From contig NC_017030.1 of NCBI RefSeq assembly GCF_000255295.1, positions 1,984,001 through 2,048,000 of the forward strand: 64,000 nucleotides of DNA. The letters are read 5' to 3'. The position numbers and the translations under genes are program-made. This stretch comes from Corallococcus coralloides DSM 2259. Its GTDB lineage: Bacteria; Myxococcota; Myxococcia; Myxococcales; Myxococcaceae. Of this stretch, positions 20,344 to 52,569 are shown in pieces. Position 1 is the first letter of the stretch. Every line of letters starts with the position of its first letter. The notes under the pieces were generated by a model, which was not told where the DNA came from, did not search any database, and saw only the letters and a program-made list of their open reading frames with translations.

Positions 20344-22503
20344 TTACTTCCGGGGCTTCTGCATGCGGCGGATGAAGTCCGCGTCCACGCCGCCGGCGCG
20401 CAGGCGCACCAGCTCATCCACGGTGGCGGGCTTCACGCCCGCGGCGTCCAGCTCGCGCAGGAAGCTGGCGTCGACGGACATCGCGCGCAGCTGCACGGCC
20501 TCATCCAGCGTCAGGTTCCCGAAGCCCGCGGCCTTCAGCTCGTTGAGCCACGCGGCGTTGATGTCCATGGCCTTCGCGGCCAGCAGGTCGTCGGAGTCCT
20601 CCTTGCCGAAGCCCAGGGCCGCCATCTGCCCCAGCCACTCCGGCGTGACGCCCAGGTGCTTCATGGCCACCAGCTGCTCGGCGGGGATGGAGCGGCCGAA
20701 GCGGTCCGTCATGGACTTCACGTAGTCCGGCGTGACGCCTGCGTGCTGGAAGCCCACCAGCGTGTTCACCGTGGGCTCGTAGCCCATGGCGGAGATGCGC
20801 TCGACGACCTCCGGGGTGACGCCCGCGATCTTCAGCGCGACGAGCTGGTCCACGCTCAGCGGATCCACGCCCACGCGGGTCTTCTCATCGGCGTCATCCG
20901 ACTCCTTCCTCGCGGCGCGCACCTTCTCCTTGGCGGAAGGCGCGGGGTTCGGAGCAGGCGCGACGACCGGGACGGGCGCCGGGGGCGGAGCAGGAGGCGC
21001 CGCGAGGACCGCGAGCGGCGCGGGCGGCGGGACAACCATCGCGCGCGGCGTCGCCACGGAGGCCGCAAGCGAAGTGGGCAAGAGGCCCGAAGCCGGTGCG
21101 GACGTCGAAGCGGTCACCGCGTGCGGCGTCGCCACGGAGGTCGCAAGCGAAGTGGGCGAGGGGCCCGAAGCCGGTGCGGACGTCGAAGCGGTCACCGCGC
21201 GCGGCGTCGCCACGGAGGTCGCAAGCGAGGTGGGCAAGGGGCCCGAAGCCGGTGCGGACGTCGAAGCGGTCACCGCGCTCAGCGTTGCCGCGGAGGCTGC
21301 AATCGACGTGGATGCGGGGGCGGCCGGCGCGGGCACCGCGGCAGCGTGCGACAGGCCCGTGGATGCGGCGTCATCGGAACGGGGCGTGGCGCTCACGGCC
21401 GGGGACGCCAGGGCCTTCGACTCCGGCGCCTTCGGGGGCTGCACGGCGAGCGCCGTCAGCGGCACCGCCAGCGCCAGGCTGCTGGCCAGCGTGACGATGG
21501 ACACCCCCGCCACCCAGCGCGACGAGCACCGCGACGCGGGCGCCACCACCAACCGCCGCACGCGGTCCTTCAGTGAACCCCCCAGCGCGGACATCGCGGG
21601 ACCGCGGGTGTCCATGCCCTGTAGTCGCAGCGCCTCCAGCGCGGTGAGCGCCCGGGCGTAGGGGAGGGCGCCGGGGCCCTGCCGCACCGCGAGGTCGTCA
21701 CAGCAGTTCTCGCGCTCCACGCGGATGACCTGGGACATCCACCACACGGCCGGGTGGTAGAAGAGCACCGTCTCCACCAGCGTCTGCACCATGTTCACCG
21801 CGAAGTCGTGACGGCGGATGTGGGCCAGCTCGTGGGCCAGCACCAGCTCCAGCTCCCGCACGGCCAGCCCGGTGAGCGTGGCGGTGGGGACCAGCACCAC
21901 CGGCTTCAGCCAGCCCAGCGTGGACGGCACGTCCAGCTTCGACGACACCAGCAGGCGCACCGGACGCGTGAGGTTCAGCCGCCGCGCCAGCACCTCCAGC
22001 CGCTGCTGCCATTCCCACGACGCATGCACCGCCTCGTCTACCTGCCGGCGCAGCCCCATCCAGCCCTTGAGCAGACGCAGCGACGACGCCGCCACGCCCA
22101 GGCCCCACGCCAGCACCAGCCAGGGCAGGTGCTCGCCCACCTGCTGGAGCACCCAGTCCAGCCGGGGCAGCGTCGCCGTCTCCTCCACCGCCAGGGGACG
22201 CGAGGCGGGCAGCTGCGTCAGCGCAACGGACGCCGGGGCCGGCATGGGCGCCACGGTCCGCGGGACGGCCGCCGTGCGCGTCACCGGACGGGACTCCGCC
22301 GCGCGCGAGGCATGCCGCCACGCGGTGGCCACTGGCAGCGCCAGCATGATGCCCAGCGCGCCGCACGCCAGCGCGTAGCGCAGGTTCGCCGACCGCCGCC
22401 CCACCCACCGGAGCGCCAGCGCCAGGGCCACCGCCACGAGCGCGCCCTGCCACACCAGGTGCACGAGCGCCCAACCCACCGCTTCCAGGATGAGACCGTT
22501 CAT
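20344..22503 (-). CDS. BlaR1/MecR1-type M56 metallopeptidase with GVTP repeat domain
   Basis: The 719-residue protein begins with membrane segments (WALVHLVWQGALVAVALALAL and more to about 150). A zinc-peptidase domain follows with HELAH (224-228) and FYHPAVWWMSQVIRVERENCCDD, as in the BlaR1 protease. After a further membrane segment at about 330-350 there is a long Ala/Ser/Thr/Pro linker with three copies of a 26-residue unit. It ends in six or so GVTP-type helical repeats (520-719) where BlaR1 has a penicillin-sensor domain. Its start overlaps the BlaI-type gene by ATGA. By analogy it would cleave or inactivate the repressor on sensing an external signal. Confidence 0.88.
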   Translation of the reverse strand: MNGLILEAVGWALVHLVWQGALVAVALALALRWVGRRSANLRYALACGALGIMLALPVATAWRHASRAAESRPVTRTAAVPRTVAPMPAPASVALTQLPASRPLAVEETATLPRLDWVLQQVGEHLPWLVLAWGLGVAASSLRLLKGWMGLRRQVDEAVHASWEWQQRLEVLARRLNLTRPVRLLVSSKLDVPSTLGWLKPVVLVPTATLTGLAVRELELVLAHELAHIRRHDFAVNMVQTLVETVLFYHPAVWWMSQVIRVERENCCDDLAVRQGPGALPYARALTALEALRLQGMDTRGPAMSALGGSLKDRVRRLVVAPASRCSSRWVAGVSIVTLASSLALAVPLTALAVQPPKAPESKALASPAVSATPRSDDAASTGLSHAAAVPAPAAPASTSIAASAATLSAVTASTSAPASGPLPTSLATSVATPRAVTASTSAPASGPSPTSLATSVATPHAVTASTSAPASGLLPTSLAASVATPRAMVVPPPAPLAVLAAPPAPPPAPVPVVAPAPNPAPSAKEKVRAARKESDDADEKTRVGVDPLSVDQLVALKIAGVTPEVVERISAMGYEPTVNTLVGFQHAGVTPDYVKSMTDRFGRSIPAEQLVAMKHLGVTPEWLGQMAALGFGKEDSDDLLAAKAMDINAAWLNELKAAGFGNLTLDEAVQLRAMSVDASFLRELDAAGVKPATVDELVRLRAGGVDADFIRRMQKPRK
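21043..21276 (-). repeat. three tandem 78-bp coding repeats (26 residues each)
   Basis: Three nearly identical 78-bp units encode AVTASTSAPASGP followed by PTSLATSVATP in the linker of the M56 protein. The landmark GACGTCGAAG recurs at 21101, 21179 and 21257. Third-codon-position identity is also high, so the expansion is recent. Confidence 0.9.
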
Positions 22504-23989: not shown

Positions 23990-25183
23990 TTACGAAGCAG
24001 GTGGTCCTGCGGCCTGGGCAATGGAGCGCCAGAGGCGTGAGGCCCACCGGCCCAGGAGAGCCCGGGTACGCTGAAGGAGGCTGCCCTCTGAAGGCTTCAC
24101 CCCGTGGGAGGGTTCGTGAAGGCTGGTGCGAGGAGGCTCGGGCTGGATGCACCTCCCTGGGGAGGAGGCGTTCCACCCTGTTCGACCGTCGGACAGGTTG
24201 CCCAAGGCCGATCCCATCGCGTCCTTCCCAGCGCACTCCGCGCCGTGCCCACCGGACGCGAGTCCTGGAGGAGAGACTGGCGCGAGGTGACGGAGGCCAT
24301 CTGCCTCCACCCCGGGGCATGCCTCCAGCGCCTCGTCTTTCACGGTGGCTGCCAAGGGAACTCCGAGGTCACGCGCCTCATGCGCTTCGTCTTGCGCGTT
24401 GGCTGATGCCGGGGCCACAAGCGGCCCCTGCTTCTCCTGGGCGAGATCTTCTTCGGGCGAGCAATGCGCCTGGGGTGCAGGAGCGAAGGCATTCAGCACG
24501 AGCTCATCGCAAGCCTTCAGTAGTGCCGGCAGTTCCTGCTGAAGCGCCTGCACGTTGCGCTCCGACAGGGCCCCCATTGTGCAGGTGGCCCACTCGCGCA
24601 GCGCCTCACCACCCATGTGTGGTACCAGTTGGGCTGCACCTCCCAGGAACGCCCTCTGCAGGGACTGAACGAGGAGCACGTGCCCGGGACGGTCAGCCAC
24701 CCGCGCCGCCTGCCGCAGCAACTCGAACTCGAGCTGCGCGCAGGTTGCACCCGGCTCCCAGCGCGCCGCATTCCAAAGCGCGAAGCACGTACTCCCCAGC
24801 CGGTCCAGATCGAGGTCCGAGGCCCTCGCGCAGCAGTCGACCAGCAGCTCCACCAGCACCTGCCGCCTGAGGCTGAAGTAGCCCTCCAGAAGCCACCGGG
24901 CCTCCGGGGAGCGCTCGTCATGCAGCGCCAGGCCCAGGTTCTCCAGCGTCAGCGACTCATCCAGCGCCACCGCGCGCGTCTTGCGTCCGGGGCGCTGCAC
25001 CACCAGGCCCCGCGCCGCCAGCCGTCGCAGCGCCTCACGGATGGTGCCCCGGCATACCTCATAGCGACGCGCCAGCTTCGCTTCGGAGCCGAATTGCCCG
25101 CTCGGGTGCAGCCGCCCCAGCGCGATGTCGCGCTCGATTTGCGCCTCCACATAGGCCACGAGTCCTCCCCGTCCCATCCCCAT
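23990..25183 (-). CDS. GntR-family transcriptional regulator with long C-terminal tail
   Basis: The 397-residue protein has an N-terminal winged helix (IERDIALGRLHPSGQFGSEAKLARRYEV, then TIREALRRLAARGLVVQRPGRKTRAV) and a helical FadR/FCD-like effector domain to about residue 240. The last 150 residues are low-complexity and contain NLSDGRTGW, which is an in-frame copy of the dispersed palindrome at 24177-24197. The ATG at 25183 follows AGGAGG. Its upstream region is the tandem palindrome array, so autoregulation through those sites is conceivable but unproven. Confidence 0.8.
   Translation of the reverse strand: MGMGRGGLVAYVEAQIERDIALGRLHPSGQFGSEAKLARRYEVCRGTIREALRRLAARGLVVQRPGRKTRAVALDESLTLENLGLALHDERSPEARWLLEGYFSLRRQVLVELLVDCCARASDLDLDRLGSTCFALWNAARWEPGATCAQLEFELLRQAARVADRPGHVLLVQSLQRAFLGGAAQLVPHMGGEALREWATCTMGALSERNVQALQQELPALLKACDELVLNAFAPAPQAHCSPEEDLAQEKQGPLVAPASANAQDEAHEARDLGVPLAATVKDEALEACPGVEADGLRHLAPVSPPGLASGGHGAECAGKDAMGSALGNLSDGRTGWNASSPGRCIQPEPPRTSLHEPSHGVKPSEGSLLQRTRALLGRWASRLWRSIAQAAGPPAS
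24177..24197. repeat. degenerate copy of the dispersed 21-bp palindrome inside a gene
   Basis: CCTGTTCGAC-C-GTCGGACAGG differs from the perfect palindrome by one base in the left arm. It lies in the coding sequence for the C-terminal tail of the GntR regulator and is read in frame as part of NLSDGRTGW. Confidence 0.7.
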
Positions 25184-25304
25184 TCCCCCCTCCTCGTCCC
25201 AGTATCGCCATCCAACCACAGGGGTCTGACATGGACGTTCGGGGCCCACCCTCCTCCGCGTCGCTTGCCGGGCCAGTGCACCCCCGGGCCGCATGGGGCG
25301 AAAA

Positions 25305-25782
25305 CCTGTCCGACTGTCGGACAAGTTCGCGGACTCCATGGGGCGAAAACCTGTCCGACTGTCGGACAGGTTTTGAGGCAACCGGTCCCGGGCGGGTGCC
25401 TCTGTTCGTGCCCCACCTTCGCGTCCGCGCAGGCATGACGTCGCGTCCCCGCGAAGCATCGCGACCTGGGGCCTCATGCGGCGAAGCTTGTCTGACAGTC
25501 GGACAGGTTTTGAGGGCACCGGCCCCGGGCGGGCGCCTCTGGCTGTGCCCCATCTTCGCGTCCGCGCACGTATGACGTTGTGCCCCGCTCGGGCTGGCGC
25601 GGCCTCGGGCCCCATGTGGCGAAGCTTGTCCGACTGTCGGACAGGTTTTGAGTCAATCGGGCCCGGGCGGGTGCCTCCACCCGGGGCACTCCCTTGGCGT
25701 CAACGCACGCTCGACGTCGCGGTCCATCGCCGTGCTCGGCGATGCGTGTCCTCGTCTTCAACCTGTCCGACAGTCGGACAGG
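25305..25782. repeat. tandem array of about 137-bp units centred on a 21-bp palindrome
   Basis: The 732-bp gene-free stretch 25184-25915 holds five palindromes with arms CCTGTCCGAC / GTCGGACAGG (or one-base variants) at 25305, 25350, 25487, 25625 and 25762. The first spacing is 45 bp and the next three are 137, 138 and 137 bp. Between palindromes the units share a CCCGGGCGGG(T/C)GCCTC block and, in two of them, TTCGCGTCCGCGCA, so whole units were duplicated. Most copies are followed by TTT or TTTT. It lies upstream of the GntR gene and downstream of the 610-codon gene ending at 25916. No gene was recognised in the rest of the interval. Confidence 0.85.
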
Positions 25783-25915
25783 TTTGGGAAAGGGGCGCGC
25801 GGCGGGCGCCTCCATTCATGAACCTGACCTGGCGCTTGCGTGCACCACGCCATGGCCTACCGCCGCGCTTCGCCACGCAAAGGTCCTCGCGGAGCGCTTC
25901 GGGGCCCAGGATGGG

Positions 25916-27748
25916 TCAACGAGCTGCCGGCGAGCTGCTCAGGTGCTCTCGCAGACGTGAGGCGTAGCGGGCCGCGGCGGATCTCAGACGGGCGGCTTCG
26001 TCGGGATTCGTCCTCTCCAATGTGGTCCCGGCCAGGGTGTGGTGGCCGCATTGGAAGGCGAGGTAGCAGGGCCGGTAGAAGCGCAGCAGCCAGGGGGAGA
26101 CGCGGTGGCCGCTGGCGTGCTCGACGTGCGTGGCGAGCGCGGGTTCGCTCAGGTCCAGTTCCACGGCGGCGCCCACGATGTCCCAGGCCACATCCTGACA
26201 GCCCACCAGATCGAGCCCGGCGTGGTGGTCCACTGCGTCCGTCTTGAGCAACCGGCCTCCGGGGAGGACAAGCCATTCCCATGCGTGAAGCTTGTGGTCT
26301 GTTTCCACGGGCCGCGTGGTTTGTGCGAGCGCGTCCAGGTGGGGCATCCATCCGTCGAGGACCCGCGCGAGTCCTTCGTCCAGGACCCGGGCGGTGTTGT
26401 ACCGGGCCATCTCCAGCAACTGGTGCAGGGAGGCGCCGCGTCCGGGCTCCGGCGCGGGGAAGGCCCGTGCGCGGAAGCCGAGGTAGCGGCCCACGTGCTC
26501 CAGGAGCATGGCGCGGTCCAGCGCGCGTGCGAGCGGCAGGGGGCATGCTCGCGGTGCGGCGGGGTCCAGGTCGTCCGCGTGCGAGCGCGCGAGCCAGGGT
26601 TGGACGAGGAAGCCGTGCCGCAGTCCCGTGACCGGAGGGGTGAAGCCGGCGCTCGCGAGTTGGCGTGCTCGGTGGACCCGATGGTTCGCTGGGACTCCGA
26701 GGCCCGCGAAGCGAAGCAGGAAGGTTCCGCGCTCCGTGGTCAGCAGGTACTTGCGGCGCTCCTGCTGGACGTGGACCGCGGGCCAGTCTCGCGGATCCGG
26801 AAAGAGGTGCTGGCGCCAGGCGCCCGCGCTGATGTCCTCCAGCGGAGCGATGGCGGGTCCGGTGAGGTCTTCCACCCAGGCCATGAGTCGCGTGGCGCAG
26901 GTGTCGAAATCCGGGGGGTGACGGTGGGCGTGTGCCCAGCGTGCACGGTGATGCTCGCTGGCCATGGGGCCCGGAGCGCCCGCGTGGCTGGGGAAGAAGT
27001 GGAGCCGCTCGCGGCGCATGCCCCGGGCCTCCAGGAAGTCCGCCACCGCGCCGAAGGTGCTGCCCGACAGCCCAGGACCTTCATCCACGATGGACACCGC
27101 GTCCGAGTGGGCCGCGGTGTCCAACTCGCGTGTGAGCTGGAGGCCGGGACGCAACTGGCGTTCGAAAGGAGGACCCACGGGGCGGACCGTGACGGGCGGC
27201 GAGGATGCGCCGAGGCCCGCGGCGACGACGCACGCGAGCCCGGTACCGATGCTGCGCACGCCCACCACCCGCGTCGAACCCGCGAGCCGCGAGGCCCGCG
27301 CGGCCTCCAGATACAGCTCCGGGTACAGCGCGAAGTGCGCGTAGCCCTCGGGCTCCTTCAGGGTCACCCGCGCGGGCAGGGCGCTTCGCTCCAGTGACTG
27401 GAGTCTTGCTGACAGAGTGCTCCACCCCGACGATTCACGCAGCGCGTGGCGCGAGGCCGTGCCCGGTGCGGTGACGCCATCCCACGATTCACGCAGGCGC
27501 TTCGCGAGCGCCAGGGGCAAGGCGAGCCTGACCTCACGCTGGGGGCCTGCTCCGTCCTCGCCCGTGGCCTCCATGTCCGCGTCGAGCAGGCCCTGGGCGA
27601 GCACGCTGGCTTCGATGAACAGCGTTACCAGCTCCGCGTGCCGCTCCAGTCCTGGAGGGAGCGTGTCCAGTCTTCGCAGCCGGGACTTCAGCGGGCCGAG
27701 GACCTCCCTGGGGTCGAGCACTCGCGGATGGTCCCCATGAACGAGCAT
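25916..27748 (-). CDS. phosphoribosyltransferase-like / kinase-like fusion protein
   Basis: The 610-residue cytoplasmic protein is of no family I can name. Residues about 125-260 resemble a type I phosphoribosyltransferase: VVGVRSIGTGLACVVAAGL, then VSIVDEGPGLSGSTFGAVADFL (218-238), where a PRPP loop normally reads like VVDDGxxTG. From about 330 to 560 the sequence recalls an aminoglycoside-phosphotransferase-like kinase (RKYLLTTERGTFLLRFAG, ETDHKLHAWEWLV, LLKTDAVDHH, CQDVAWDIVGAAVEL) with altered catalytic residues. Its ATG is only 6 bp after the phosphatase gene, so the pair forms an operon. Both activities are inferred from motif shape. Confidence 0.6.
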   Translation of the reverse strand: MLVHGDHPRVLDPREVLGPLKSRLRRLDTLPPGLERHAELVTLFIEASVLAQGLLDADMEATGEDGAGPQREVRLALPLALAKRLRESWDGVTAPGTASRHALRESSGWSTLSARLQSLERSALPARVTLKEPEGYAHFALYPELYLEAARASRLAGSTRVVGVRSIGTGLACVVAAGLGASSPPVTVRPVGPPFERQLRPGLQLTRELDTAAHSDAVSIVDEGPGLSGSTFGAVADFLEARGMRRERLHFFPSHAGAPGPMASEHHRARWAHAHRHPPDFDTCATRLMAWVEDLTGPAIAPLEDISAGAWRQHLFPDPRDWPAVHVQQERRKYLLTTERGTFLLRFAGLGVPANHRVHRARQLASAGFTPPVTGLRHGFLVQPWLARSHADDLDPAAPRACPLPLARALDRAMLLEHVGRYLGFRARAFPAPEPGRGASLHQLLEMARYNTARVLDEGLARVLDGWMPHLDALAQTTRPVETDHKLHAWEWLVLPGGRLLKTDAVDHHAGLDLVGCQDVAWDIVGAAVELDLSEPALATHVEHASGHRVSPWLLRFYRPCYLAFQCGHHTLAGTTLERTNPDEAARLRSAAARYASRLREHLSSSPAAR

Positions 27749-28442: not shown

Positions 28443-30125
28443 ATGACGCCTTTCACGAAGGGCTGGCCGGTAGCGCTGTGGGTCGTGCTGCTCGTGGGCT
28501 GCGCGGCCCACCGTCCACCGCCCGCCGCCCCGGCTCCGCTCCAGGAGGTGGAGCGCTTCGCCCGGTTCGAGGTCGGCTTCACCGTCCCCGGCATCACGAG
28601 CGCCCCGGACGATGTCCCCGTGCACGCGCGCTTCGTGGCGCCCTCTGGCCGGGAGATGGACGTGGGCGGATTCCCCGTGGCGGGCGGCGGCTTCCGCGTG
28701 CGCTTCACGCCCCAGGAGGTGGGCGAATACCACTACCGCGTCCAGGCGGGAGCGAAGGAGGTCGCTTCGGGCCGGTTCCTGTCCCGGCCGTCGTCACGCC
28801 GGGGCTTCGTGCGCCGCAGCACGGTCTCCGCGCACCACCTGGCGTGGGACGACGGCACGCCCTTCCTTCCGCTGGGGGAGAACCGCTTCAACGTCTACGA
28901 CCCCACCTGGAATCAGGGCCAGCAGTCCGCCACGGAGTACATCGCGGGCATGGCGGCGCGCGGGATGAACACGCTGCGCGTCTTCATCTTCACCGACTGC
29001 GAGCGGGAGGAGCCGGAGCCCGGCCCCCAGCCCGGCTGCCTGGAGCCGCGCCCCGGCGTCTTCGACCCGGAGGTCGCCGCGCACTACGACGCCATCCTCG
29101 ACACCGCCGAGCGGCACGGCCTGCAGGTCATCCTCACCCTCTTCGCGGTGGGCTTCACGCCGGGCGAGACGTGGAAGAGTTGGGAGGACAACCCCTACAG
29201 CACCGCGCGCGGAGGCCCCGCCGCCATGCCCGATGACTTCTTCGACCGGCCACAGCTGGCCGAGCGGCGGCTGCGCTACGTGCTCGCGCGCTTCGGCGCG
29301 TCCCCCGCCCTGCTGGCCGTGGACCTGCTCAACGAGCCGGAGTGGGACGGCAACGTCGGCGAGGCGACGTGGATGCCCTGGGCGGTGAAGCTCGCGCAGA
29401 CGTGGCATGCGGAGGACCCGTACGGGCACCTGGTCACGGTGGGCTCGGTGGGGCTGCACTGGAATGTCGATGGCGATGAGCGCCCCTGGTACGCGAGCCG
29501 GCAGGACGACCTCCTGCAATGGCACCTGTACGGGAAGGAGTTCTACGAGGTGCATGCGCTCGCGGCGGAGCTGACGCGCAAGGTGGCGGAGACGTGGGGC
29601 TACGACAAGCCCATCCTCCTGGGCGAGTTCGGCTACGGCGGCGACGACCGCCGGACGTATGACCACACGCACGTGGGCATCTGGGTCACCACCTTCTGTG
29701 GTGCCGGAGTGCTCGCGCACAGCGCCCCGCCGTTCACCGAGGACTCCGACGTGCCGATGACGCCGGAGCGCGGCCGTCACTTCCGTGTGCTGGCGGACTA
29801 CCTCGCCCGCCTGCCTCCGGGGACGCCGCTGCTGCCACAAGAGGCGCCTCCGGCGTCACCCGCCGGCACGCGGGCCTGGTCCATGGGCCGCCCGGGCCTC
29901 CATGCGCTGTGGGTGATGGGCGCGAAGCAGGGCTATGGCGAGCCCGTGTCCGACGCCCGGGTGCGCGTGCGGCTTGCTCCCGGGGAGTACCGCATCACCT
30001 GGTGGAACGACGTGACGGGCGAGGTGCTGAGCCGCGAGCAGCGGCTCGTGTCGGACCCGGAAGTGTCGCTCACCGTGCCCCCGTTCGTGCGGCACGCGGC
30101 TGGCGTGGTGGAGGTCGTCCGCTGA
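28443..30125 (+). CDS. GH5-like glycosidase lipoprotein with DUF5060-type N-terminal domain
   Basis: The 560-residue lipoprotein (lipobox VLLVGC) has a beta-sandwich domain at about 40-130 (VHARFVAPSGREMDVGGFPV, GEYHYRVQAGAKEV) that resembles DUF5060. A TIM barrel follows: FLPLGENRFNVYDPTW, MNTLRVFIF, the acid/base Glu298 in LLNEPEWDG and the nucleophile Glu395 in ILLGEFGYGG. A C-terminal beta domain closes the protein. It probably cleaves beta-linked polysaccharide at the cell surface. GGGGAAGGGAC precedes the ATG at 28443. The final 16 codons form the first unit of an 82-bp tandem repeat extending past the stop. Confidence 0.88.
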   Translation: MTPFTKGWPVALWVVLLVGCAAHRPPPAAPAPLQEVERFARFEVGFTVPGITSAPDDVPVHARFVAPSGREMDVGGFPVAGGGFRVRFTPQEVGEYHYRVQAGAKEVASGRFLSRPSSRRGFVRRSTVSAHHLAWDDGTPFLPLGENRFNVYDPTWNQGQQSATEYIAGMAARGMNTLRVFIFTDCEREEPEPGPQPGCLEPRPGVFDPEVAAHYDAILDTAERHGLQVILTLFAVGFTPGETWKSWEDNPYSTARGGPAAMPDDFFDRPQLAERRLRYVLARFGASPALLAVDLLNEPEWDGNVGEATWMPWAVKLAQTWHAEDPYGHLVTVGSVGLHWNVDGDERPWYASRQDDLLQWHLYGKEFYEVHALAAELTRKVAETWGYDKPILLGEFGYGGDDRRTYDHTHVGIWVTTFCGAGVLAHSAPPFTEDSDVPMTPERGRHFRVLADYLARLPPGTPLLPQEAPPASPAGTRAWSMGRPGLHALWVMGAKQGYGEPVSDARVRVRLAPGEYRITWWNDVTGEVLSREQRLVSDPEVSLTVPPFVRHAAGVVEVVR

Positions 30126-30485
30126 GCCCGTGCGTGGCGACGCGGCCATGGCATTGCTGCCTCCGTTCGTAGGGCACACGGCCAGGGTGATGGAGGCAGT
30201 GCTCTGAGCCTGCGCGTTGCGACGTGACCTTGGCATCACTGCCTCCGTTCGCACGGCGAACAGCCAGGGTGATGGATGCAGTGCTCCGCGCCCGAGCATG
30301 GCGATGCGGCCATGGCATCACTGCCTCCGTTCGTACGTCACGGCCAGGGTGATGGCGGCAGTGCTCTGAGCATGCGCATGGCGATGTGGCCTTGGCATCG
30401 CTGCCTCCGTTCGTACGGCACACAGCCAGGATGATGGAATTGGTGCTCTGCGCCCGCGCGTGGCGACGAGTCCACAGCAGGGCAG
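30078..30485 (+). repeat. five tandem copies of an about 82-bp unit derived from the 3' end of the GH5 gene
   Basis: CC(T/C)CCGTTCG recurs at 30078, 30160, 30242, 30324 and 30404, giving periods of 82, 82, 82 and 80 bp. The first copy is the last 16 codons plus stop of the GH5 gene. Later copies still read PPFV-H-A-VME in the same sense but are not translated as part of it. This fills nearly all of the 431-bp gap 30126-30556; only the last 70 bp lead into the next gene. Confidence 0.85.
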
Positions 30486-46102: not shown

Positions 46103-47584
46103 GCCCAGGGACACGTAGTCCTGGCTGGCGGCGTCGTTGGCGGAGTGGGGATCCGCGGGGACGCTGAACGTCCGGGTCGCGGTGATGCGGTAGGACAGGC
46201 CCACGCTGGAGCGCGGCAGCGGCGCGCTGAAGCGCAGCAGGGCGGTGTCTCCCACGGCCATCGGCCCCACCTCGCACTGGAGCGTGCCGGCGGACATGAG
46301 GCAGTCCGGGGTGCTGGCCTGGAGGCCCGGAGGCAGGGCCACGGTGATGACGGCCCGCTTCAGCGGATCCGGCCCGTGCTGCGTGACGGTGAGCGTGTAG
46401 TCGATGCGCGGCACGGACACCCCCGGCCTGGGGACGGCGGTGAGCGTCACCTCCACGTCCGCGGAGGCCGCGGCCCGCAGCACGGACACGTCATGGCTCC
46501 GGGTGTTGGCGGTGACGACGTCCGGCTTCAGGTCCCCGTCGAGCAGGCCCACCGCGAGCGCCGCGGGACCTTCGCCGGTGGACAGGCGCGTGGGCGCGCC
46601 GAAGGAGCCGTGGCCCTGGCCGGGCAGGAGGGACACGGTGTCCTCGTTGAAGTTCGCGGTGATGAGGTCCAGCATCCCGTCGCCGTTGAAGTCGCCGGCC
46701 GCGACGAAGTACGGGCCTCCCTTCACGGGGAAGTCCACGCGCGCGGGGAACGTCCCGGCGCCGGTGCCGCGCAGCACGGACACGCTCTGGCCCCGGAAGT
46801 TCGCGGTGACCACGTCCAGCTTCCCGTCGTCATCCACATCCACCACCGCGACGGAGTAGGGCGCGTTGCCCGTGGGGAAGTCCATGCGCGGCCGGAACGT
46901 CCCGTCCCCGTTGCCGAGCATCACCGACACCGTGTCCACGAAGTTCGCGGTGACCAGGTCCGCCATCCCGTCGTGGTTGATGTCCGCCACCTTCACCGCG
47001 AACGGGTTGGTGCCGGTGGTCACGTCCTTCTGGTGCACGAACCGTCCGGAGCCCCGGTTCAGCAGCACCGACACGGAGTCATCGAGCGCGTTGGCCGTCA
47101 CCACGTCCAGGCGGCCGTCGCCGTCCAAATCGCCCACGTCCACGGCCGAGGGCTCCGCGCCCACGGAGTGGTCGGTCCGCGCGCCGAACGTCCCATCCCC
47201 GCGCCCCAGGAGCACGGACACCGTGCCTCCGAAGTGGCTGGTGACCGCGTCCAGGTGGCCATCCACGTCGAAGTCTCCCACCGCGACCGCGCCGGGCAAC
47301 GCGCCCGTGGGCCGCTCCAGGCCGGGCGCGAACGTCCCGTCCCCCAGGCTCCGCAACACGGACACGGTGCCCGCGGTGTGGTTGGCGGTGATGACGTCCA
47401 GGCGCCCGTCCTCGTTGAAGTCACCCAGCGCCACCGCGCGGGGGCCCATCCCCGTGGGAGACGCGCGAGGCGTGTCCAGCAGCGGCCGGGCCGGGCTGTC
47501 CGCCATCCGAGGCAGCGCCATGGCGAGCAGCACCGCGACGCTGAACAGCATCAAGCCCGCATGGGCCATTCGTGGGTGTCTCAT
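46079..47584 (-). CDS. secreted FG-GAP/VCBS repeat protein
   Basis: The protein has about 501 residues and a signal segment (GLMLFSVAVLLAMALPRMADS). Seven repeats follow with the pattern GDFNxDGxLDVxTANxxxxTVSVLxGxGDGTF, each with an Asp-rich calcium-binding loop (DFNEDGRLD, DLDGDGRLD, DINHDGMAD, DVDDDGKLD). They should close a beta-propeller. A C-terminal DUF11-like beta domain with two Cys (TPDCLMSAGTLQCEV) ends the protein. It is likely extracellular. The start is uncertain among ATGs at 47602, 47590 and 47584; the last has GAGGGGG upstream. Confidence 0.85.
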   Translation of the reverse strand: MRHPRMAHAGLMLFSVAVLLAMALPRMADSPARPLLDTPRASPTGMGPRAVALGDFNEDGRLDVITANHTAGTVSVLRSLGDGTFAPGLERPTGALPGAVAVGDFDVDGHLDAVTSHFGGTVSVLLGRGDGTFGARTDHSVGAEPSAVDVGDLDGDGRLDVVTANALDDSVSVLLNRGSGRFVHQKDVTTGTNPFAVKVADINHDGMADLVTANFVDTVSVMLGNGDGTFRPRMDFPTGNAPYSVAVVDVDDDGKLDVVTANFRGQSVSVLRGTGAGTFPARVDFPVKGGPYFVAAGDFNGDGMLDLITANFNEDTVSLLPGQGHGSFGAPTRLSTGEGPAALAVGLLDGDLKPDVVTANTRSHDVSVLRAAASADVEVTLTAVPRPGVSVPRIDYTLTVTQHGPDPLKRAVITVALPPGLQASTPDCLMSAGTLQCEVGPMAVGDTALLRFSAPLPRSSVGLSYRITATRTFSVPADPHSANDAASQDYVSLGGLAATWW

Positions 47585-48970: not shown

Positions 48971-49011
48971 GCGGACGAAGCGCTGGAACCTGTCCGACAG
49001 TCGGACAGGTT
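48971..49011 (+). repeat. left 41-bp direct repeat bounding the 3.5-kb segment
   Basis: GCGGACGAAG is followed by a short variable part and the perfect 21-bp palindrome (arms CCTGTCCGAC and GTCGGACAGG around A, 48989-49009), then TT. It matches 52502-52542 with only two differences, in the same orientation. It begins at the first base after a TGA stop codon. Confidence 0.85.
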
Positions 49012-49051
49012 TCCCAAGGGGCCGCCCGGCTCAAACCGCGCATGGCACGAG

Positions 49052-49585
49052 TCAACTGACGGCTCGTACTCTGGACAGTAACTCCTCGCGGAGGTCCGCA
49101 ACCCCCCTGAGAGGACACGTCACGAACCCGAGGCTGGCCCGAATCTTGTGCTTGCTGAGGTCCGCGCGGAAGTGCTTCTGGAGAACTTGCTGGTCGGGAG
49201 GCGACTCGATACCTGACACGACCACTGCATGGATTCGAGCAGGGACGCACCGAGAATGGAGGTTCTTGGCGGTCAGAAGAATCCCTGAGGTGAGCTGCGC
49301 AACGGCTTTGTTGAAATCGCTGCCGCGCTTGAGTTCGAAGAACAGGAGCCAAGGCTGGGCTCGCAGCTTACGCCGGTAGAAGAACATCCCGTCACAGATT
49401 GACGTCCCATCCGGCTCTTGGTGGCGGAGTTCGTCGTGCGGATCGTCCAACTGGAACAGGAGCACCGCTTCTTGCCCCTCGGGAGAGAGCTTCGCGCCCA
49501 CATCGCTTTCCGAGAGCGAGTAGTCACCGGGCTGCAGTCCGTTCCAGAGGAGTCGATCAAAGGCGCCCCCTACCGTCGTACTCAT
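49052..49585 (-). CDS. small PD-(D/E)XK-like protein paired with an ATPase
   Basis: The 177-residue soluble protein has a restriction-nuclease-like core: Asp65 in ICDGMFFYRR, then the strand WLLFFELKRG with Glu84-x-Lys86, and a following helix DFNKAVAQLTSGILL. This is the D-x(n)-E-x-K pattern. Its start overlaps the ATPase stop by ATGA (49582-49585), so the two are translationally coupled. A nuclease effector controlled by the ATPase is a reasonable reading, but the family was not identified. Confidence 0.65.
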   Translation of the reverse strand: MSTTVGGAFDRLLWNGLQPGDYSLSESDVGAKLSPEGQEAVLLFQLDDPHDELRHQEPDGTSICDGMFFYRRKLRAQPWLLFFELKRGSDFNKAVAQLTSGILLTAKNLHSRCVPARIHAVVVSGIESPPDQQVLQKHFRADLSKHKIRASLGFVTCPLRGVADLREELLSRVRAVS

Positions 49586-50922
49586 TCGCCCCCCTCTGTT
49601 GCGTCGAGCGCGGCATTGAAGATCTGGCTGAGCCGCTGTGTCACGGGCGCGAAGGTGCTCTTCGTGATGAGACCGGTCTCGGGAGCAATTGCGTTCGTGA
49701 CCTTCACCTCGGAGCCATCAGGTGTTGCCTCGAAGGCGTAGACTGCGACCTTGTCCGCAGGCAGGAACGCCTCGCGTGTCTTGAGCCGGAACTCATCCGC
49801 GAGCTTCGCTTGATGTGCCTCGGGAGCGCGCCCCGCCTCAAGCAGGTTGTTGAGGTGGTCGATGACGTAGGGGCTGTGGGTCGTGAAGATGATGCGGATC
49901 CCGTGGTTGACCATGACCGCCATCAACTCGACGAGCGCGAGCTGTGCAACGGGATGGGCATTCATCTCCAACTCGTCGATGAGGAGGACGTCTCCTGGCG
50001 ATGCGAGGGACCGGATGTAGTGCGAAAGCCCAGCCAGGGACCGCGAGAGGGAGGATGCCACGGAGATGGGAAGCTCCTGGCTGGCGCCGACTTCCAACAC
50101 AAGGCGCTCCTCGCCTCTATCTCCCGTGAAATGGATGTTGCCTCCGGTAATGGGGGCGAGGAACGGCAATAGGACTTCCTTGAGGACCGATTCCCTCCGC
50201 GAAGCTCCGCGCATTCGCCGCATAACGCCCAGGAAGTCCGTCATGGGATGCGGGAGTTCCAGATCGTCATCCCCCCCTTCGGCAGCCAGTAAGAGCCCGG
50301 CCCGCTCCGCAGGAAAACAGAGCACGTTAAACAAGAGCTGCCGGAGTGGCCATGCACAGGCGCTTGTGAGCGTGTCCTCGTCCCAGTGCGTATTGGTTTG
50401 GGTACGCTTGATTGCCTTCTTGAGATTGTCGGTGAAGGTCCAGAATGACGTGATGCTGAGCAGGCCCGACTCGGGTTCGAGTTCAGCCACCACGGCGTCG
50501 TGCCGCGCTTGCAGTTCCTGGATGCCAAGCGAAAGCTCGACTCGGGCATCCGGAGCAATGCCCGCACTCTCGCCAAGAAGCGATGCAAGCAGATCCTGGT
50601 CCATCAAGGGCTCGAATGTCCCTTCTGGCCAGACGCCCAGTTCGTCGACACCCAGCGTCACAGCCGCCTTGGATGTTCCCTGGCTTGAGGCCTCGAAGAG
50701 CGGTTGAAGGCGTTCACGAACTCTGGAGTAGAGCGGATCGGTCGTGCTGGCAGCCTGGATGCCCATGGTGTTCAAGCCAGTGGACACAGGCCACAGCAGT
50801 TCGAACAGTGCCCATGTCAACCAGGTCTTGTTCGTTCCGTTGTGTCCGCTGAAAACCGTCAGCGGCCGGATGTCGAGTTCGGCGTCCGTGATCCGACCGA
50901 GCTTGTGAACGGTGAGCTTCAT
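49582..50922 (-). CDS. ABC/OLD-type AAA ATPase (AAA_15-like)
   Basis: The 446-residue protein has an SMC/ABC-like N-terminus (KLTVHKLGRITDAELDIRPLTV) and Walker A GHNGTNKTW (26-34), with Asn31 in place of the usual Gly just before Lys32. The C-terminal part has a signature-like SLSRSLAGLSHY, Walker B DVLLIDELEMNAHP (Asp317-Glu318) and the switch His349 in TTHSPYVIDHL. Between them is a helical insert without a coiled-coil long enough for SMC function. Such ATPases partner small nucleases in defence systems such as PARIS or Septu. The DNA is less G+C-rich than the flanks, suggesting acquisition. Confidence 0.85.
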   Translation of the reverse strand: MKLTVHKLGRITDAELDIRPLTVFSGHNGTNKTWLTWALFELLWPVSTGLNTMGIQAASTTDPLYSRVRERLQPLFEASSQGTSKAAVTLGVDELGVWPEGTFEPLMDQDLLASLLGESAGIAPDARVELSLGIQELQARHDAVVAELEPESGLLSITSFWTFTDNLKKAIKRTQTNTHWDEDTLTSACAWPLRQLLFNVLCFPAERAGLLLAAEGGDDDLELPHPMTDFLGVMRRMRGASRRESVLKEVLLPFLAPITGGNIHFTGDRGEERLVLEVGASQELPISVASSLSRSLAGLSHYIRSLASPGDVLLIDELEMNAHPVAQLALVELMAVMVNHGIRIIFTTHSPYVIDHLNNLLEAGRAPEAHQAKLADEFRLKTREAFLPADKVAVYAFEATPDGSEVKVTNAIAPETGLITKSTFAPVTQRLSQIFNAALDATEGGE

Positions 50923-50990
50923 GTGCTCGTCCTATCCCACGAGGAACGGTCCCTCGAGGCTGAATGCGTCCTGGTATCGACTGGAGGGTC

Positions 50991-51491
50991 CTATCGGAAT
51001 TCGTTCACGATGTAGACGCCTGCTCTGGGGGAACCGAGCACGGCTGTTCCGGGCTTGGACTCCGGCAGCTTCCGAAGTTGTCCGAGCCCGAGCCTTGCGA
51101 CCGCACAGATGGGGACCTGCTCTCCTCCATCCAGGGGTTGGGCGGCGTAGTACCGGATCACGGCCTGCGGCCCGTCCGCCCAGACGCGGCCATAGAGCCG
51201 GGCCGGTGCGTCAATTGGACCCAGGTTGTCTTCGAGGACGCTCTCGATGGAGCCGGCATACAGGGTGATGGGATAGGCACGCGACTGGTTCGCGTCGAGC
51301 TGAACCCAGGCTGAATCCCCCACGAACAGCCGCAGGTACTTCATCGCCTTGCGCGCTTCTTCGGGACATTCCTCGGGTCCCGGCGTGCCATCGGAACGCA
51401 GGGCCACCTTGCCCGTCGCGGTGCCCGGGCAGCCAGGTGCCGTCATGAGCAGGACCGCGCAGCCCAGAAGTGTGAACGTGCGGGATACCAT
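50991..51491 (-). CDS. lipoprotein encoded with a DUF2381 gene
   Basis: The 166-residue lipoprotein (lipobox TAPGC, near residue 21) has a mature beta-rich region (GDSAWVQLDANQSRAYPITLYAGSIES, PARLYGRVWADG) and ends AVLGSPRAGVYIVNEF. It starts 11 bp after the DUF2381 stop. In myxobacteria such pairs often accompany a Ser/Thr kinase gene (from memory). No kinase is present here. Confidence 0.7.
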   Translation of the reverse strand: MVSRTFTLLGCAVLLMTAPGCPGTATGKVALRSDGTPGPEECPEEARKAMKYLRLFVGDSAWVQLDANQSRAYPITLYAGSIESVLEDNLGPIDAPARLYGRVWADGPQAVIRYYAAQPLDGGEQVPICAVARLGLGQLRKLPESKPGTAVLGSPRAGVYIVNEFR

Positions 51492-51502
51492 GCCTCGCGC
51501 TC

Positions 51503-52423
51503 TTATCGCGCCAGGAGCGCTGGATCTAGCTGGACGAACGCCTGCCTCAAGCCGTCCTGGCGGTAGATCTCAAGGAAGAGGCTCGTCAACACGCCTTCTT
51601 CCATGAAGGCACTGCTGTCCACGACAGCAGCTACCACGCCGGAGCTTCCGAGCGTGATTTCGCGCGTCGTGACGCGAATCGCGACCGCTCGAGCATGACC
51701 GCCGTCCTTGGTCACCAGACGTGCCGATTTCAGACTCCAGGGCTCTTGAGAATGGGTGTTCTTGACCTTGAAGACGACCGCGACCTTTCCCTTGCCCTGG
51801 AACACCTGGGCATCCACCTCGCTCTCATCATCCTTGCCGGAAAAGCGGTCCGCGAGCTTGAACGGGGTCTGCGCGATGGCCTCTGAAGCCAGCAGCGCCG
51901 CGAGCGCATGGTCCTCCGAGACCTCTTCCTTACGGTAGCGTTCATTCTCCTCGGTCAGTGTGGAGTTCTCCTTGAGCGCCCGGAGCAGCGCCGCGTGCAT
52001 GCTCGCGTAGCTCTCTGGATCCTTGAACACATCGACCTGCTGATCCGCGCCGTTCGAATGCCTCCAGCCCGGGTGACGCAGGAGGAATGCCGCTTCTGTC
52101 CCATCCACCAGCGTCACAATCAGGGGAATGCCTTCGTCGTCGGCGAGGTCATGCATGGGCTCCAGGACGACCTTGTTGCGGACCACCACCAAGGGTTCGA
52201 GGCGCCCCTCCCATCCGAGCAACTTCGTCCTGGTGGTATCCACGGCCTTCTCGAAGCGCAGCGTCGTGACCACCTGCCCCCGCACATAGACCCGGTGGGT
52301 GGCGTCGCTCGGGTGCTCTGAGAGCATCAGAGGCCGGATGGCCGGTTCTCGGTCGCGGGCTACGGCAGCAGAGGCCACAAAAAAGCTGAGCAGGCTGGTC
52401 CGGAGGGACGGTGGGATTCGCAT
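51503..52423 (-). CDS. DUF2381 (TIGR02268-like) myxobacterial family protein
   Basis: The 306-residue protein has a weak signal peptide (TSLLSFFVASAAVARDREPA). HRVYVRGQVVTTLRFEKAVD and VVRNKVVLEPMHDLADDEGIPLIVTLVDGTEAAF are the typical opening of the TIGR02268 paralogous family of Myxococcus. A helical middle (LLRALKENSTLTEENERYRKEE) and a beta-rich C-terminal half (VAVVFKVKNTHSQEPWSLKSARLV) follow. It is probably periplasmic; its function is not established. It forms a pair with the downstream lipoprotein gene. Confidence 0.85.
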   Translation of the reverse strand: MRIPPSLRTSLLSFFVASAAVARDREPAIRPLMLSEHPSDATHRVYVRGQVVTTLRFEKAVDTTRTKLLGWEGRLEPLVVVRNKVVLEPMHDLADDEGIPLIVTLVDGTEAAFLLRHPGWRHSNGADQQVDVFKDPESYASMHAALLRALKENSTLTEENERYRKEEVSEDHALAALLASEAIAQTPFKLADRFSGKDDESEVDAQVFQGKGKVAVVFKVKNTHSQEPWSLKSARLVTKDGGHARAVAIRVTTREITLGSSGVVAAVVDSSAFMEEGVLTSLFLEIYRQDGLRQAFVQLDPALLAR

Positions 52424-52501
52424 CGCGCGGGCAACCTATCAAGGTAGGTTCTCCATGGACAACCGCTTGGGGCGGCTGAACGAGCTGGAGGCCGCCCTTC
52501 C

Positions 52502-52542
52502 GCGGACGAAGTGCCGGAACCTGTCCGACAGTCGGACAGGTT
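52502..52542 (+). repeat. right 41-bp direct repeat bounding the 3.5-kb segment
   Basis: This is the same 41-bp sequence as 48971-49011 apart from two single-base differences before the palindrome (perfect palindrome at 52520-52540). It lies between the start of the DUF2381 gene and the end of the DUF1501 gene, both on the minus strand. Confidence 0.85.
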
Positions 52543-52569
52543 CTGGAGCAAGGCGCGACCGGCGAGTCT

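Follow-up and report, generated by a model that had tools for sequence, protein, structure and literature searches.

REP/BIME elements are short palindromes that occur in hundreds of copies, often clustered and with a preference for gene 3' ends, and the RAYT gene is flanked by its own repeats; REP-type repeats are usually tied to transposases. Mobile insertion cassettes consist of the inverted repeats of an insertion sequence (IS) carrying a passenger gene. A third point of comparison is the operator of the GntR-family regulator FadR at fadL in E. coli, for which a primer given in PMC4259882 holds CTGGTCCGACC.

The locus described here, an array of palindromes upstream of a gntR gene in Corallococcus coralloides DSM 2259, resembles each of these in part. 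It shares with REP/BIME elements the hundreds of short palindromes, the clusters, the 3'-end preference and a gene flanked by its own repeats; it differs in that the linked protein is a GntR regulator, and in that the hairpin is not strictly conserved even though most sites fold. The likeness to the FadR system lies in a FadR fold over a 240-aa model, in a GTCCGAC core like that of the fadL primer and in three common residues (R45, T47 and R49), whereas the operator is of another kind, with two cores 8 bp apart, tandem arrays, hundreds of sites and 12 copies of the gene. A related GntR gene in another genome (G037) lies between IS-type inverted repeats shared with an IS630-type relic, as in a mobile insertion cassette, but no such repeats were seen around the Corallococcus copies. 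Our preferred reading, to which we give a probability of roughly two in three, is that of a putative autoregulatory multi-operator array belonging to a multicopy regulator gene with a mobile past. Gene and sites form a lineage-limited system, and the array is part of something larger than itself.

The window analyzed is a stretch of 64,000 nucleotides from the C. coralloides genome (G000, a single contig of 10,080,619 bases); other genomes and loci are given by working numbers (G and L). The array lies in a tandem gap (25184-25915) between gntR and a 610-aa gene on the same strand, with the following features in and around it.

23990-25183, minus strand: gntR, encoding a GntR-family protein with a FadR fold (by Pfam and by AlphaFold2 with fold search); start codon at 25183
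24178-24196, minus strand: worn site in the C-terminal coding region of gntR, a match to the palindrome
25224-25230, minus strand: lone GTCAGAC core, ~47 bp upstream of the gntR start codon within the conserved leader
25306-25350, minus strand: short 45-bp unit; its site (25306-25324) is the closest of the five to the gntR start codon
25351-25487, minus strand: 137-bp unit with an exact site (25351-25369)
25488-25625, minus strand: 138-bp unit; site 25488-25506, 2 mismatches
25626-25762, minus strand: worn 137-bp unit; site 25626-25644, 1 mismatch
25763-25812, minus strand: outermost site (25763-25781, exact) and the remnant of a further unit, with a block at 25794-25812
25916-27748, minus strand: 610-aa gene upstream of the array, of no recognized family

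The palindrome is 19 bp long with the consensus CTGTCCGACWGTCGGACAG, and its five copies at 25306, 25351, 25488, 25626 and 25763 carry 1, 0, 2, 1 and 0 mismatches, respectively. Eight matches at up to 3 mismatches were found in the whole window, against 0.05 expected from shuffles. The spacings of 45, 137, 138 and 137 bp reported upstream of a GntR gene in the initial annotation are thus confirmed, giving three units of 137 or 138 bp, the outermost of them worn, and one short unit of 45 bp. TRF recovers a period of 137 bp over 25336-25677 (2.5 copies, 81% matches), and a CCCGGGCGGG-GCCTC block occurs four times in the array at spacings of 137, 138 and 135. That annotation had also proposed that whole units were duplicated, and had named likeness limited to the palindrome as the result that would speak against this. 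Once the units are aligned, with the palindrome excluded, the likeness reaches into the spacers: that of unit 25488-25625 is 0.78 identical to that of unit 25351-25487, and that of the outermost unit (25626-25762) 0.67, against a shuffled-spacer mean of 0.515 and maximum of 0.576. Since the spacers are alike outside the palindrome, similarity extends beyond it, and the units were duplicated whole. A CRISPR array was considered and rejected, as the 137-bp spacers are homologous to one another (mean identity 0.63-0.65 versus 0.515 when shuffled). Three other tandem repeats occur in the window: an array of about 82-bp period and with blocks CTGCCTCC/GGAGGCAG at 30076-30468, where a glycoside hydrolase-like gene ends; a 78-bp repeat at 21040-21311 inside an M56 peptidase-like gene; and a 147-bp repeat at 46649-46991 inside a called gene.

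The GntR winged helix of the encoded protein is recognized by Pfam (PF00392, E 1.5e-12, 47.4 bits against a cut-off of 27). An AlphaFold2 model of the protein (240 aa, pLDDT 85.6) has 1hw1 as its top Foldseek match (E 4.7e-7), and VIA aligns it with FadR chains at Z 18.7-19.0 and an rmsd of 3.6-4.1 A over 215-222 residues; as modeled, the protein has the FadR fold, C-terminal domain included. It is not a FadR orthologue, scoring 21 and 20.1 bits against the NCBIfam equivalog cut-offs of 249.2 and 189, and it lacks R35, T44, T46 and H65. R45, T47 and R49 are invariant across 63 gntR copies and, in the residue register inferred from the structural alignment, correspond to positions that a passage of PMC4259882 places among the DNA contacts of FadR.

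The C. coralloides genome holds 12 dispersed gntR copies that are 70-100% identical over 245 aa; the first ~230 residues of the protein are well conserved and the remainder is variable. Fifteen of the 16 genomes of the genus carry 1-15 copies each, and at least one copy is present in 28 of 92 genomes of the family. Searching 84,980 species genomes with three peptide patterns returned 66 loci in Corallococcus, Hyalangium, Archangium and other Myxococcaceae, the sole exception outside the family being a weak Mycobacterium match (E 2e-5). A conserved partner gene was sought and rejected, the nearest neighbors of the 12 own copies having no common family, and the downstream neighbor is convergent at 10 of these 12. 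For the 610-aa gene, no Pfam or NCBIfam family was found at the thresholds used; by DNA search it occurs in 5 of the 16 genus genomes, always beside a GntR gene. At another locus (L025:10374-12878), a gntR array copy has an OLD/AriA-like AAA-TOPRIM gene immediately upstream (E 1.7e-79 to PADLOC Old).

Gene and palindrome keep close company. With up to 4 mismatches allowed, a site precedes every one of the 12 own gntR copies (L023 needs all 4), and the nearest lies 106-141 bp before the start codon. Of 43 copies examined from Corallococcus and G079, 42 have an upstream site within 3 kb (L155 is without one), and a further site at up to 4 mismatches follows 0.92-1.29 kb after the gene start in 10 of the 12 own copies and in 21 of the 43 overall. 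Of 63 gntR copies examined, 45 carry a GTCNGAC core no more than 75 bp from the start; none of the 10 in G037 does. No sigma-70-like promoter was found in the scanned stretch around the array. When 92 genomes were searched with the site pattern GTCNGACWGTCNGAC, 23 had both gene and sites, 4 sites only (G024, G004, G006 and G067), 5 the gene without a site of this form (G080, G051, G046, G039 and G040) and 60 neither. Outside the genus the counts are 8, 3, 5 and 60 (Fisher p 9e-6), or 6, 1, 7 and 62 when at least 4 sites are required (p 5e-5), figures that are inflated by shared ancestry; of the 11 genomes outside the genus that carry sites, 4 carry just one, and the reversed control gives a single match in 11 of 92 genomes. 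Within the genus, copy numbers of gene and site are correlated (Spearman 0.85 over 16 genomes). G024 has kept 10 sites with gntR absent. G042, which has three gntR copies, carries a changed palindrome, CTGTCTGGTTGTCAGACAG, at 17 places among the matches listed, in arrays with periods near 60 and 80 bp, and all three of its gntR copies have this palindrome about 1 kb after the gene start.

The multi-site operator that the initial annotation had offered as one possibility is therefore retained as a putative one, by inference from the GTCNGAC cores, the FadR fold, the co-occurrence of gene and sites and a proximal site 106-141 bp upstream. A GntR dimer, or two neighboring dimers (one per core), would bind each site, and the proximal site together with the single core near -47 would allow gntR to control its own expression. 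Extra units would arise by tandem duplication and raise the number of bound dimers. Gene and array may have entered 3'-end gaps long ago as a mobile unit and been homogenized between loci since, with stray arrays staying or spreading at gene ends. Simple autoregulation does not explain the sites as a whole, because they outnumber gntR copies more than twentyfold and, in the fetched stretches, favor gene 3' ends.

The C. coralloides genome contains 286 sites at up to 2 mismatches, against none in the reversed control. At up to 1 mismatch, each of the 16 genus genomes, C. coralloides included, has between 6 and 221, and 22 of 96 family genomes have any. Many sites lie in local arrays with periods often near 70 bp and otherwise near 40, 60, 80 or 140. 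In the fetched C. coralloides stretches, which were picked around exact sites and so permit comparison of gap types only within them, gaps of 80-1500 bp contain sites not belonging to a GntR gene in 11 of 26 convergent, 26 of 212 tandem and 2 of 134 divergent cases; of the 26 tandem cases, 23 are closer to the 3' end, at median distances of 48.5 and 174.5 bp. These counts leave out gaps below 80 or above 1500 bp, the gaps next to gntR and any site that falls within a called gene (one in L035 at 7999 and a pair in L046), and they use gene calls from a simple codon-usage finder that missed gntR, which was added from tblastn. Sites without a GntR gene thus favor gene 3' ends.

This placement invites another view, in which each palindrome would be a REP/BIME-like or terminator hairpin that acts at gene ends in the form of RNA or single-stranded DNA, with GntR genes as chance or merely flanked neighbors. 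The preference for convergent gaps and for the 3' ends of tandem gaps would suit such hairpins, as would the resemblance of clusters with a period of about 70 bp to BIMEs and the folding of all five stretches tested as RNA (z -2.6 to -5.6). In G007, moreover, the N positions of the two cores carry T and A as a complementary pair at many sites among the matches listed, so that dyad symmetry may matter there. The pattern of broken pairs points elsewhere. In the tenth of the C. coralloides genome that was fetched, 212 sites match CTGTCCGACNGTCGGACAG with 3 mismatches or fewer. Their stem is broken exactly at the N of GTCNGAC in 57, while the six other core pairs are broken in 1, 4, 6, 11, 15 and 3; beyond the cores, the outer two pairs are broken in 59 and 37. 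When either C or G is accepted at each N position, 217 sites match, and their combinations are CG 155, GG 34, CC 20, TG 6 and CA 2, and the compensating double swap G..C occurs in none of the 217. Core bases are 94-100% conserved over these sites and the two central N positions 81 and 89%, a pattern that, judged from sequence, fits two protein-binding GTCNGAC cores 8 bp apart better than it fits a stem. The stem is followed by about three T on average, a scan of 24900-26000 for a stem-loop with a T-rich tail found no terminator-like site, and no Rfam family reached the gathering score in the window. A RAYT-type Y1 transposase (PF01797) was rejected as the mover, being present in 0 of 16 genus genomes while the control was positive in 5 of 14, and the sites co-occur with gntR outside the genus as well. 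We consider the hairpin explanation quite unlikely.

The putative operator array sits in an accessory part of the genome. The segment 22991-37823 (~14.8 kb), which holds gntR and its array, is absent from G027 and G029 at the syntenic position, and G016, G017 and G020 lack at least 11 kb of it. At the narrower place 23976/27783, the window has gntR, the array and the 610-aa gene; in G024, where the search for gntR found no copy, two convergent genes are separated there by 73 bp. A second variable place, the convergent gap 48972/52577, is marked in the window by two sites.

48990-49008, no strand assigned: single exact site, left border of a variable insert
52521-52539, no strand assigned: single exact site, right border of the variable insert; G027 has a GntR unit here

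In the window these bracket a 3.6-kb gene block (48973-52556) with an ATPase gene close to PADLOC PD-T4-4_A (AriA-like; E 4e-38), its 177-aa partner, a DUF2381 gene and its neighbor; the contents of the block differ between species. G020 has 33 bp between the aligned ends, with the preceding small gene also missing; G021 and G028 have sites only (two, and six at 49-52-bp spacing); G027 has a GntR unit; and G024 has other content without sites. Most of the window block with the right-hand site only is found in G016, and part of the block with no site in G017.

Such places raise the question of whether the sites are themselves recombination or insertion borders of a mobile cassette system, with arrays as the scars of repeated insertion and loss. 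One place that is variously near-empty, occupied by sites only, filled by a GntR unit or filled by a bracketed block, and another reduced to 73 bp in G024, are what such borders would produce. Their support comes from these two places compared; G016 and G017 lack one or both of the expected border sites, and neither a recombinase nor a target duplication was found in Corallococcus. Nor were terminal inverted repeats or active movement seen around the Corallococcus copies, one border having been examined for repeats and duplication. We regard sites as borders as unlikely, and return to the operator reading, in which mobility belongs to the past of the gene.

Comparison of positions between species indicates how gene copies and arrays have changed together. 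The comparison covers eleven places, each represented in two to five of seven species and by fetched copies only; flanking sequence is ~82-96% identical, and synteny holds on both sides for 39 of 40 pairs. In 38 of these 40 pairs of positional orthologues, one copy or both have a closer paralogue within the same genome, and in 31 both do; leaving out the pair without a syntenic upstream flank (L025/L128) gives 37 and 30 of 39. The nearest relative of 34 of 39 copies lies in the same genome. In a gntR tree of 43 rows, which includes one copy each from G016, G018, G019 and G079, the nine G028 copies and the five G021 copies form single clades (99/92 and 100/99), while those of G000, G027 and G029 are clustered without forming single clades (6, 4 and 2 changes versus shuffled means of 10.7, 7.5 and 4.8). 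L130 of G027 was rejected as a counterpart of the window copy, its position being the 48972/52577 place.

The arrays behave similarly. Spacings of 128-150 bp occur at 9 of the 12 own loci and of 45 bp at 4; a spacing of 45-46 bp recurs at L047, L142 and L144, at L125 and L129 in G027 and at L150 in G029, and in G028 spacings of 48-54 bp lie next to the gene at 6 of 9 loci. A unit type is thus common to distant loci of one genome. The spacer of the unit at 25351-25487 has its best match at another locus of its own genome (0.82, L142), and for 33 of 42 spacers of the 137-bp type the closest is in the same genome. Mean spacer identity is 0.654 within a locus, 0.635 within a genome and 0.633 and 0.630 between genomes; L130, left out of the window group in the tree and pair comparisons, is kept in it here, which touches the orthologue classes and not the same-genome count. 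Overall, gntR copies and their arrays tend to resemble those of the same genome more than their positional counterparts elsewhere. Gene conversion would produce this concerted pattern, and so would repeated insertion into the same places.

One place compared in five species has 1, 2, 5, 5 and 9 upstream sites with differing unit lengths, which bears out, between species and with one genome compared per species, the earlier suggestion of an expandable repeat. Variation of copy number and unit length at a single place is also what a plain VNTR would give, that is, neutral duplication by replication slippage without function. Three observations make this very improbable: conservation of the core bases reaches 94-100% across the 217 sites, the proximal site holds its distance from the start codon, and distant loci of one genome share a unit type.

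A sister case for the mobile past is provided by G037, whose genus is probably Hyalangium. It has 31 gntR copies, of which ten were fetched. Three of these (L103, L107 and L109) are 92% alike with sharp ends at about -87 and +1267 to +1270, defining 1.35-kb elements; the borders of L104, L105 and L110 differ from them. The element ends are inverted repeats, CTAAGC...GCTTAG, clear among the ten at L103 and L107 (19 and 31 bp); such ends occur at further G037 copies too, and two shorter derivatives (L171 and L177/L178) keep both. The elements (e.g., L103, L106 and L183) lie in CTAG/TAA contexts, inserted at stop codons, and at five of six left flanks the element end gives an in-frame TAA to a frame open across all 200 codons inspected. 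At the place of L106, the counterpart sequence is CTAG in two genomes (G038 and G040) and TTAG in two more (G035 and G036), consistent with a doubling of TA; the other 11 of 15 counterparts, at three places, are less clear and read TTAG (1), GTAG (3) or TGA (4), have an element-like end (1) or are unaligned to the junction (2). L317 in G037 is a broken IS630-type (DDE_3) relic with both element ends at 1 mismatch, the only one of seven DDE_3 matches in that genome with such ends. A title in the reference list of PMC2170065 refers to a preference of IS630 for CTAG. In the genus of G037, gntR very probably traveled within IS630-type ends.

A broader reading, which we hold tentatively as possible but short of probable, joins two steps into a single self-spreading repeat system of regulator and operator. 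GntR units arriving at gene ends would bring arrays that outlive the gene and seed hundreds of 3'-end sites; gene conversion or re-insertion would keep the copies alike, so that the 3'-end binding network evolves concertedly and in a species-specific manner. Gene and sites do look like one spreading, co-evolving repeat system. The open-licence literature holds, among the matches listed, nothing that we recognized as describing this family of sites or of gntR genes.

The operator is the reading best supported by sequence and structural model, and the gene-end network and the concerted change are the surprising parts. Here the protein linked to a dispersed repeat is a transcription regulator, and the repeat its probable operator. 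If this is true, the family would offer a natural experiment in the spread of a binding-site network over a genome and in the concerted evolution of dispersed bacterial genes.
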